A program made the position numbers and the translations under genes. DNA of 64,000 nt, taken from contig QCEF01000001.1 in NCBI GenBank assembly GCA_003278545.1, positions 1 through 64,000 on the forward strand, read 5' to 3'. Shown here piece after piece: positions 35,464 to 54,010 of this stretch. The notes beneath the pieces were generated by a model, which did not search any database, was not told where the DNA came from, and saw only the letters and a program-made list of their open reading frames with translations. The DNA is from Prochlorococcus sp. AG-355-N16. GTDB taxonomy: Bacteria; Cyanobacteriota; Cyanobacteriia; PCC-6307; Cyanobiaceae. Numbering within the stretch: position 1 is the stretch's first letter; every line of letters starts with the position of its first letter.

Positions 35464-35534
35464 GGCGGCATGGCCAAGTGGTAAGGCAGAGGATTGCAAA
35501 TCCTTTATCCCCAGTTCGAATCTGGGTGCCGCCT
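35464..35534 (+). tRNA. trnC: tRNA-Cys (anticodon GCA)
   Basis: A 71-nt cloverleaf: GGCGGCA pairs with TGCCGCC, the anticodon stem GAGGA/TCCTT encloses TTGCAAA with anticodon GCA, and the T-arm is CCCCAGTTCGAATCTGGG. Its last 25 nt and the following DNA recur in degraded form at 36761-36795, marking it as a likely insertion target. Confidence 0.96.
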
Positions 35535-35544
35535 TATGTAATTT
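35510..35544 (+). repeat. tRNA-Cys 3'-end direct repeat, intact copy
   Basis: The 3' part of tRNA-Cys plus 10 nt of flank, from CCCAGTTCGAAT to TTATGTAATTT. The second copy at 36761-36795 matches 29 of 35 positions by hand alignment, in the same orientation, 1251 bp away. Weaker similarity continues for a few dozen bases beyond. Confidence 0.7.
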
Positions 35545-35622
35545 AGTGACATATTTCTCTATAAACCGTTGCAGGAAAAGGAGTTTTGAGTAACGATTGT
35601 TATACTTCAAGTCTCGAAAACT

Positions 35623-35689
35623 GGTAGGTGAATGATAGGTTAATCGACCTTTTTACCTTTTGTAATATTATCCCATGAATTCACCTACC
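35623..35689. repeat. 11-bp inverted repeat, GGTAGGTGAAT/ATTCACCTACC
   Basis: The arms at 35623-35633 and 35679-35689 are perfectly complementary with a 45-nt spacer. A related ATTCACCTA recurs at the end of the adjacent gene (about 36350). It could be a long hairpin in a transcript or a protein-binding pair. Confidence 0.6.
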
Positions 35690-35767
35690 GCCTCTCATAT
35701 GAAATTCACATTCCAATAGATAATGAAAACTTCTTTTAAAAGAATATGTATTTTAATTACCATCGAC

Positions 35768-35791
35768 TTAACTGTCACATGTGACAGTTAA
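35768..35791. promoter_or_regulatory. perfect 24-bp palindrome
   Basis: The sequence is fully self-complementary around the centre ACATGT: half-site TTAACTGTCACA, followed by its exact reverse complement. It lies 91 bp before the glycine-zipper gene start. No T-run follows, so it is not a typical terminator; a dimeric repressor operator or a cleavage/recombination site is possible. Function is unknown. Confidence 0.6.
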
Positions 35792-35882
35792 TAAAGAATA
35801 ATAGTTTGACTTTAAATTTTTAAATAATTATTTATTGTAAAAGTGTGTGAGTGAGTTGTCGAAAATATCCTAATTTCTTTCA

Positions 35883-36326
35883 ATGAAAAATATCATTGCC
35901 GCTGTATTTCTATGCGCTTCATTTCCAGTAAATGCTTATGAGAGCATTGGAGATAGCAGTAATCGTGAAGCATATGAGTCACAAAATGGATACGCATACG
36001 AAAACAAGTGTTTCCGTTATGAATATAGGGAACATTATATTCCAGGCAATTCAATGTCTCCTGGTTATGTCAAATCTTATAATGAAAAAGTTTCTATCCC
36101 ATGCAATAGTGATCGCAACGTATTGAATCATTATCATCACAAGACTGAACCACAAACTTCATATGTGAAATATAAATCTGCTCCAAAATGTACTGGAAGT
36201 ACAACTTTAGGTGGATTGATTGGAGGTGGACTTGCAGCATCTCTATCAAAACGTGATGCATATGGTTGGAGTATTCCTTTAGGCGCAGTTTTAGGTGCAG
36301 GTATAGGTAATGCTGAATGTAAATAA
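35883..36326 (+). CDS. secreted glycine-zipper protein, function unknown
   Basis: The 147 aa product begins with a clear signal peptide (MKNIIAAVFLCASFPVNA, cleavage expected after residue 18). A Tyr/Asn/His-rich middle part follows. The C-terminal TLGGLIGGGLAASLSKR and IPLGAVLGAGIGNAEC form a glycine-zipper pair, as in surface antigen and outer-membrane lipoprotein families. Four Cys occur in the mature part, but there is no lipobox. It lies in the tRNA-Cys-bounded interval, so it may be acquired. Confidence 0.7.
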   Translation: MKNIIAAVFLCASFPVNAYESIGDSSNREAYESQNGYAYENKCFRYEYREHYIPGNSMSPGYVKSYNEKVSIPCNSDRNVLNHYHHKTEPQTSYVKYKSAPKCTGSTTLGGLIGGGLAASLSKRDAYGWSIPLGAVLGAGIGNAECK

Positions 36327-36369
36327 ATTTTTATGATTTAAAAAAAGAAAATTCACCTAATAAAAAAAA

Positions 36370-36729
36370 TTACTTCCCTTTTAATCCTTTAATTCGTGAA
36401 TCTAATAAGTAATTATTCATTCTAGTTTGACAATTATAAATCAAGAGAGGGAATATAGATCCTTTACTATATTTTTTCCAACTCTCAAAACATACTTCTT
36501 TCGCAACTATTTCCCATTTTCTTAATAATTTATCGTCTAAATATAATGCTAATTTTCGTGAGGAAAATTCTCTTTCTTTTAATGCACATAAATTTAAATC
36601 TTTCTGAGCAAGGTTCTCTTGAAAATTACAATTTACTTCATTAGCGTTTACTGCATATGTTGAAAAAATAAAAAGATGAAATAAACCAAAACAGAAATTT
36701 TTTAAGTTTAAATTTTTATAAGAATTCAC
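36370..36729 (-). CDS. secreted LprI/DUF1311-like protein
   Basis: From GTG 36729 the product is 119 aa with a signal peptide (LKNFCFGLFHLFIFSTYAVNA, ending about residue 29). The mature part has DLNLCALKEREFSSRKL, LLRKWEIVAKEVCFESWKKY, and GSIFPLLIYNCQTRMNNYLLDSRIKGL. This pattern (C-..-W-..-C-..-GS-..-C-..-T-R-..-L) is that of the LprI lysozyme-inhibitor-like domain. Cys 34, 48, 80 and 100 could form two disulfides. The frame opens further to 36861, but that N-terminus translates the antisense of the tRNA-Cys remnant. Confidence 0.65.
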   Translation of the reverse strand: MNSYKNLNLKNFCFGLFHLFIFSTYAVNANEVNCNFQENLAQKDLNLCALKEREFSSRKLALYLDDKLLRKWEIVAKEVCFESWKKYSKGSIFPLLIYNCQTRMNNYLLDSRIKGLKGK

Positions 36730-36760
36730 TTGGATTTCACTTATTTCTTTTAGATCGCCT

Positions 36761-36795
36761 CCCGATTCGAATATAAGTGCCGCCTTATTTAATTT
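36761..36795 (+). repeat. degraded second copy of tRNA-Cys 3' end
   Basis: CCCGATTCGAATATAAG then TGCCGCCTTAT and TAATTT correspond to the T-arm and acceptor end of tRNA-Cys and its flank. The 5' two thirds of the tRNA are missing, and the T-stem no longer pairs, so it is not a functional tRNA. This is the expected right-hand attachment-site scar of a tRNA insertion. Confidence 0.65.
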
Positions 36796-36944
36796 TTTTA
36801 CGCATTTAATTATGAAGTTTTCTAAGAACTTCAATTTCAAAAAAGGGGTATAAACTTTCAATTAATTATTGCCATTAATAAATAGAATTTAGTTGATTTA
36901 TTAATTATTTTCATCAGATTATTTATATAATAATTTAAATCATT

Positions 36945-53420: not shown

Positions 53421-53498
53421 AAAAGATTTATTACTAACTATACGCTAGCTAGAGAGTAGCAAGTTTGCACACATACTACATATAGTTTTTTATTTTTA

Positions 53499-53572
<74 letters not shown>

Positions 53573-53610
53573 AATAGATGATTTTTGGAGTAATAAGCAT
53601 TATGCTAAAT

Positions 53611-53987
53611 GAAAGCAGGAGAGGCAATCGCAAGAAAGTTTTATTTTGTTTCCAAAATAAAACTTTCTTGAGGAAAGTCCGGGCTCCCACATGGTCAGGC
53701 TTGCTGGGTAATTCCCAGTGCGGGAAACCGTGAGGATAGTGCCACAGAAACATACCGCCTAATACTTTATGTATGGCAAGGGTGCAAGGGTGCGGTAAGA
53801 GCGCACCAGCAACATTGAGAAGTGTTGGCTAGGTAAACCCCGGCTGGGAGCAAGGCTTAGTAGATTTATGACCATTACACAATCTACTTTTAAGCGCCGC
53901 TTGAGACTGTGAAGTAATTCCAGTCCTAGATAGATGATTGCCCATCTTAATTAAGATGAACAGAACCCGGCTTATGACCTGCTTTTT
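53611..53987 (+). ncRNA. rnpB: RNase P RNA
   Basis: The catalytic RNA that trims tRNA 5' leaders. P1 pairs AAAGCAGG (53612) with CCTGCTTT (53978). Conserved cores are GAGGAAAGTCCGGGCTCCCA, GGGAAACCGTGAGGATAGTGCCACAGAAACATACCGCC, GGTAAACCCC and AGATAGATGATTGCC followed by ACAGAACCCGGCTTATGACC. The long P3-region hairpin (AAGTTTTATTTTG...CAAAATAAAACTTTC) is AT-rich. Bacterial type A. rnc follows within 25 nt. Confidence 0.96.
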
Positions 53988-54010
53988 AATTGTTGTATTA
54001 TTCAAATCAG

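Follow-up and report, generated by a model that had tools for sequence, protein, structure and literature searches.

A duplicated tRNA-Cys end bounds a small insert

In the window, meaning the whole stretch of 64,000 nucleotides of Prochlorococcus DNA that was analyzed, a tRNA-Cys gene is followed about 1,251 bp further on, in the same orientation, by a decayed second copy of its 3' end (Table 1). When positions 36760 to 36795 were aligned with positions 35508 to 35544, 31 of 37 columns matched and one gap was needed; the local score was 41. The best of 1,000 dinucleotide shuffles of the 2-kb region reached 31 (0/1,000 reach 41), and no other genuine 2-kb piece of the window exceeded 32, the score of one containing tRNA-Gln. 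The direct repeat that a sequence-only reading of this DNA had proposed from a hand count of 29 matches in 35 positions is therefore real and beyond chance. The same reading had described two short genes for secreted-type proteins and several inverted repeats between the tRNA copies; these were recovered, given that both open reading frames begin like secreted proteins and that the inverted repeats include a 20-bp palindrome.

Table 1. Features of the tRNA-Cys locus and its insert, and a further RNA gene of the window
Feature	Position	Strand	Remarks
tRNA-Cys (GCA), integration target	35464..35534	+	ARAGORN, Rfam
Left core	35515..35544	+	left and right flanks overlap here in most empty sites
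Left arm-type pair, GGTAGGTGAAT + GATAGGTTAAT	35623..35644	+	89 bp after the tRNA end; unnoticed in the sequence-only reading
Inner inverted unit, GGTAGGTGAAT	35679..35689	-	at +146
Palindrome AACTGTCACATGTGACAGTT	35770..35789		20 bp, upstream of gene 1
Gene 1 (cargo)	35883..36326	+	147 aa; secreted type, glycine-zipper-like, phrog_767
Right inner inverted unit	36351..36361	-	2 mismatches; at +817, counterpart in L144 at +818
Gene 2	36370..36729	-	~119 aa; secreted type, no clear family; lies where the right arm pair is expected
Right end	36739..36800	+	62 bp, 84% like the right end of the GGTAGGTGA-type element L128
Decayed tRNA-Cys 3' copy (end and flank)	36760..36795	+	last 30 bp are the right core
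RNase P RNA (class A)	53498..53989	+	adjoins tRNA-Arg(CCT) on the - strand; ordinary

The insert carries the GGTAGGTGA repeat type. Its left end is complete; on the right the core is kept, and the arm pair is gone, with about 375 bp containing gene 2 in its place. TTCACTT-like units at 36724 to 36745 were considered as an inverted right arm pair and rejected, their 8 mismatches in 22 positions being reached at about 20 other places in the window. The loss of the right arm pair indicates that this copy is probably immobile now.

The open reading frame list shows two small ORFs in the element and no integrase or resolvase, and no relative of the recombinase described below was detected in the window's own genome (G000; E 0.001). 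For this reason the element is regarded as a cargo-only relative and not as an autonomous member, which agrees with the recombinase-free remnant or cargo-only form suggested by the sequence-only reading.

The site is empty in most of the relatives compared

A first search covered 40 relatives (24 of the same genus, the window's own genome and 15 of the class). Empty sites were found in ten of these genomes (G001, G002, G004, G009, G011, G016, G017, G018, G019, and G024), where the left flank with the tRNA meets the right flank from 36766. The two flanks overlap by 29 to 42 bp in the ten relatives, and by 30 bp in 7 of them; the overlap places the core at 35515 to 35544, equivalent to 36766 to 36795, so that the core is present twice in the window.

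A genus-wide search recovered tRNA-Cys with its left flank in 205/266 genomes. For comparison, 119 genomes were used, namely the window, 18 from the first search and 100 fetched from the 205, a nonrandom sample picked mainly by order of left-flank similarity. The tRNA-Cys runs straight into the DNA after the second fragment in 83 of the 118 other genomes. In a further 26, two 11-bp repeats stand in tandem 75 to 115 bp after the tRNA and the seamless site is lacking; the remaining 9 fit neither class. Scanned with the same rule as the occupied loci, the 83 empty sites served as control and gave no arm pair (0/83), in a scan whose consensus was written after the first examples had been seen, so that the arm counts are not blind. 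In five loci (L053, L054, L057, L125, and L153), the right flank is recognizable only from 114 to 338 bp on; L124 has about 3.1 kb with no arm pair detected in it, and the left-end units of L115, L129, and L158 are decayed or single. Contig ends cut short the occupied loci L146 and L156, and also L050.

On a tree of the neighboring genes, occupancy needs at least 20 changes, a raw count that comes from a marker linked to the site. The tree holds 114 of the 119 rows (L050 and L136 were skipped and three gave no match), and 17 of its 111 inner branches are strongly supported. The row nearest to the window, G179 (98% identity), has an empty site, and L144, which has the same cargo as the window, lies far from it. 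On this poorly resolved tree, the occupancy pattern fits repeated gain or precise loss. The genes of the window element are not fixed among the relatives examined. Site-specific integration at tRNA-Cys had been proposed earlier, with the expectation of empty sites or of larger inserts carrying a tyrosine recombinase between the tRNA copies; it is supported by the seamless sites and by a 9.5-kb insert in G256 (L064) described below.

A chance resemblance to the tRNA end, or a local duplication of it without mobility, would be compatible with the decayed state of the copy. Given that no shuffle reached the observed score, that the empty sites are seamless, and that many different inserts are bounded by the same fragment in relatives, we assign this explanation a negligible probability; a chance match of the fragment is ruled out by the shuffles and the empty sites.

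Paired 11-bp repeats at the ends of the inserts

Two tandem 11-bp units tend to be present at either end of an insert. The left pair starts 88 to 100 bp after the tRNA end; in elements with matching ends, the right pair lies about 73 to 110 bp short of the end of the second tRNA copy. At the left ends, a period of 11 beats the other periods from 8 to 15 in 17 cases out of 20, with one tie and two failures; at the right ends it is best in only 10 out of 20, with three ties and seven failures. The unit varies among elements, and includes GGTCGGCAAG, GGACAGCAAG, GGACGGTAAG, GGATGGTAAG, GGGCGGTTAG, GGGCGGTAAG, GGTAGGTGAG, and GGTAGGAAAG. The two ends of one element match each other: the summed match over 19 elements is 321, against a maximum of 303 in 100,000 permutations. 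This set comprised 16 of the 27 arm-bearing loci together with L115, L129, and L158; L131 was dropped, as its two end windows overlap, and the arm-bearing loci L049, L055, L056, L112, L123, L126, L132, L135, L146, and L156 lie outside the set. For 3 of the 19 elements (the window, L051, and L149), the left-right match is no better than background.

The GGTAGGTGA pair is specific, given that its pattern has 27 sites in 20/266 genomes and the reversed control has 3 hits. In elements of this type an inverted unit sits at +145/146, both in the window element and in all of the 9 other loci scanned except L200, and a further inverted unit occurs 42 to 57 bp inside the right pair in L128, L144, L198, and L215. 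The pair was also seen about 40 bp after tRNA-Phe (L205, 1418 to 1552) and, in L197 (5900 to 7700), next to a recombinase gene and to copies of a tRNA-like 3' end, so that a single repeat type may be used at both tRNA genes.

Viral spread was considered from exact matches to the GGTAGGTGA-pair pattern in two viral contigs and was rejected. The matches are inside a long ORF, which we take to be a T7-like RNA polymerase, and were for this position treated as chance. Patterns derived from the recombinase alignment gave no relatives in the viral contigs.

Series of differing repeat types were found within single loci (L085, L141, L199, L203, and L206). In L131 (235 to 432, oriented), an insert of about 0.2 kb at tRNA-Cys contains one arm pair and no noteworthy ORF, and looks like a scar, as if the left and right arms had recombined and the cargo had been deleted. 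Both the mixed-type series and the cargo-less L131 fit accretion and deletion between arms.

Recombinase-bearing elements occupy the same site

The 9.5 kb between the two tRNA copies of L064 encode a tyrosine recombinase of 461 aa, whose gene starts beside the right pair, and a serine resolvase. Relatives of this recombinase were found in 8/266 genomes of the genus. L064, L209 (G118), and L210 (G181) are complete elements at tRNA-Cys whose two ends carry one repeat type; the genomes of the last two were found by the recombinase search, and only L064 is among the 26 occupied sites. In L212 (G088), a tRNA-Cys 3' copy with a GGTAGGACAG pair adjoins the recombinase. Searching public genomes yielded 19 recombinase loci, including Prochlorococcus MIT 0701 and several Synechococcus, 12 of which are near tRNA-Cys (8) or tRNA-Phe (4). 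Resolvase-family proteins are found near the recombinase in L064, L209, L210, L212, and L197.

The recombinase proteins tried gave no convincing Pfam, PHROG, or PDB sequence match, and since the PDB alignment search returned 0 hits, fold comparison was used. The structural model (mean pLDDT 84.8, pTM 0.53) resembles the Tn1549, XerH, and lambda integrases, with an E value of 2.4e-5 for the Tn1549 integrase. The alignment with lambda integrase (1z1g) has a Z score of 16.0 and extends over 331 residues from model residue 8 on, with an rmsd of 9.0 that suggests shifted domains. R283, R289, R391, H392, and Y429, presumably the catalytic positions, are invariant in 14 recombinase sequences. With a predicted core-binding and catalytic fold and conserved Arg, His, Arg, and Tyr, the protein of L064 and its relatives are assigned to the tyrosine recombinases.

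In 12 of the 19 loci, the roughly 350 bp preceding the recombinase start contain an 11-bp tandem. In these 12, with repeat units read by hand and with L241 and L243 being near relatives, the distance between recombinases tracks the distance between repeats (Mantel r 0.60, p 6e-5, n 12). Left out of this test were L239, L246, L248, L249, and L251, which have no 11-bp tandem, and L244 and L247, where the tandem repeats upstream of the recombinase have a period of 14 instead of 11.

The types GGTAGGAAA, GGACGGT, GGATGGTAA, and GGGCGGTAA occur both with and without a recombinase. None of the recombinase loci found has exactly the GGTAGGTGA repeat; the nearest, one base away, are GGTAGGTAA in Synechococcus UW105 and GGAAGGTGA in Prochlorococcus MIT 0701. 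The window element resembles the integrase-bearing elements at this site in geometry and repeat style, but its unit differs by one base even from the nearest recombinase loci.

Cargo genes and sister elements

The protein of gene 1 has a weak match to glycine zippers and a strong match to phrog_767 (E 9.8e-35). Among 50,697 phage records, 206 contain relatives with less than 60% identity; 202 of these bear a Synechococcus, Prochlorococcus, or cyanophage name and 4 the name "Marine." The 25 listed phage relatives are labelled "cAMP phosphodiesterase," which looks doubtful for a small secreted glycine-zipper-like protein, and several among those listed are located at the gene of a single-strand-DNA-binding protein.

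The same cargo is present in a 941-bp element at tRNA-Cys in L144 (G053), with arm pairs at +89 and +860, and in a decayed element in L199 (G058). Copies of gene 1 with 78 to 82% protein identity were also found in L045 to L048, where they lie between two mutually related genes, which we take to encode flavodiiron proteins. The palindrome AACTGTCACATGTGACAGTT is conserved at 19 to 20 of its 20 bases in L045 to L048, L059, and L144, and is also present in L199. With up to 2 mismatches it occurs in 9/25 genomes (0 hits for the reversed control), and it is found once more in the window's genome (G000, C5:109927). It looks like the operator of a regulator. Because the copies in L045 to L048 share the palindrome and sit between the flavodiiron-type genes, gene 1 appears to be a captured chromosomal gene that became cargo together with its upstream region, the direction of this transfer being deduced. 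A recent transfer of gene 1 is not supported by synonymous divergence: dS between the window and its sisters is 0.33 to 0.44 for gene 1 and 0.36 to 0.58 for the flanking genes, so that gene 1 is neither more nor less diverged than its flanks.

For gene 2, no family was found; partial matches of 28 to 33% identity were obtained in 16 other genomes of the 266. Another cargo recurs at tRNA-Cys, a protein of polysaccharide-export (Poly_export/SLBB) type with 385 to 692 aa; it was Pfam-tested in L051, and L052, L056, L107, L116, L123, L129, and L149 are alike by sequence.

A probable cargo-only relative of a tRNA-Cys integrase element

Taken together, we consider it fairly probable (about 0.7) that the DNA from 35535 to about 36765 is an integrated, integrase-less relative of a picocyanobacterial tyrosine-integrase element that targets tRNA-Cys, that it carries only cargo between arm-type repeats, and that such an element is mobilized in trans when intact. 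The tyrosine recombinase would integrate at the 3' end of tRNA-Cys, which is the core. Integration would supply a new 3' end to the tRNA gene and leave the original one at 36760 to 36795; the 3' part of the present tRNA-Cys thus probably came from the element. The 11-bp pair at 35623 to 35644 would act as an arm-type site, recognized by the integrase through its N-terminal domain in the manner of arm-binding integrases (PMC8138268). The elements occur in several repeat types, each of which would be tied to one integrase lineage. For this reason, intact cargo-only cassettes are probably moved in trans, once an integrase of the matching type enters the cell. This proposal would apply to intact cassettes and exclude the copy in the window, and it draws on matched ends, shared repeat types and numbers rather than on observed excision.

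In 25 of the 26 other occupied genomes, the search for relatives of the recombinase found nothing (E 0.001; many of the genomes are incomplete), and with none in the window's genome either, a resident helper is missing. A helper integrase would have to come and go, or to sit in unassembled parts of the genomes. The same observation favors an explanation in which the inserts are dead remnants, i.e., full elements that lost the integrase by deletion after integration, that nothing mobilizes, and whose matched repeats are inherited. The decayed ends of the window element, L115, L129, L158, and L199 point in the same direction, as does the 0.2-kb scar of L131 with one arm pair and no cargo. Against this, many cargo-only inserts have retained both arm pairs, the two ends of 10 cargo-only elements among the 19 tested agreeing at 17 or more of 20 bases; a cargo-only element with gene 1 is found in each of G000, G053, and G058; and cargo-only inserts outnumber recombinase-bearing ones by 25 to 1 in the sample. 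We therefore regard dead remnants as an unlikely account of these inserts, and favor cargo-only cassettes mobilized in trans.

A wider and more tentative possibility is that integrase-less cassettes of one or two genes use tRNA-Cys as a common docking site in Prochlorococcus. They would be mobilized in trans, with an arm code of at least 7 types selecting the integrase lineage for each cassette, would be exchanged in an integron-like manner and would pick up host genes. This idea is held with less confidence because of the 25 occupied genomes in which no recombinase relative was detected.

The anatomy described here, in which the 3' end of tRNA-Cys holds the core, the arm pairs keep a fixed spacing from it and the repeat types follow the integrase lineage, makes the question of mobilization testable. 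The data suggest that much of the traffic at tRNA-Cys consists of inserts of about 0.2 to 4.3 kb with no recombinase of their own. Searches keyed on recombinases would miss such inserts, in a very abundant marine photosynthetic organism.

Comparison with known systems

Literature was searched mostly at the level of titles and abstracts, a body of text that did not include the original tycheposon paper, and no description of arm sites or of integrase-less inserts was recognized in it. An integrase located close to tRNA-Phe or tRNA-Cys, frequently accompanied by a small serine recombinase, has been described in Prochlorococcus and Synechococcus; that study sets it apart from the tycheposon integrases, with a mobilization mechanism that is not yet known (PMC10187409). 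That element and those described here share the genera, a tRNA-Cys or tRNA-Phe location of the recombinase, an adjacent small serine recombinase, variable cargo, the lack of a PHROG match and a lambda-integrase-like model. The recombinases found here fit this family on the traits compared. The window element shares the location at tRNA-Cys with the element of that study, but lacks the integrase and the resolvase. Attachment sites, arm repeats, and integrase-less forms are unmentioned in the excerpted text (PMC10187409).

Tycheposons resemble the present elements in occurring in Prochlorococcus, targeting a tRNA, carrying cargo genes and having a tyrosine recombinase in their larger, autonomous form, and the sequence-only reading had named them as possible relatives. 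The window element, however, is much smaller, with 1.25 kb against the 4 to 200 kb given second-hand in PMC10872708. Moreover, the recombinase elements at this site show the traits of the tRNA-Cys/tRNA-Phe integrase with serine recombinase that PMC10187409 places apart, which means a different integrase family if the match by traits holds. A remnant of a tycheposon is thus very improbable, and membership in that group is not upheld.

Cis-mobilizable elements (CIMEs), as portrayed in PMC5704250, derive from conjugative or mobilizable elements, have no integration or transfer genes, keep their attachment ends and undergo tandem accretion at a tRNA. The window element, with two small ORFs, likewise has no integration or transfer genes; it differs in that one of its two ends is incomplete, and its sister L144 keeps both. 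CALINs, the integron cassette arrays without an integrase, are alike in having small cassettes said to move in trans (PMC11389934). The present elements, in contrast, insert at a tRNA gene, have arm-type repeats at their ends and include several repeat types that use one site.

Integrases with an arm-binding domain include those of Tn916/Tn1549 and of the lambda type (PMC8138268). The recombinases described here have no detectable sequence similarity to the solved structures and no match to a Pfam integrase family, but their model shares the core-binding and catalytic fold of these enzymes, and the elements have repeats at both ends, at a fixed distance from the core, like arm sites.
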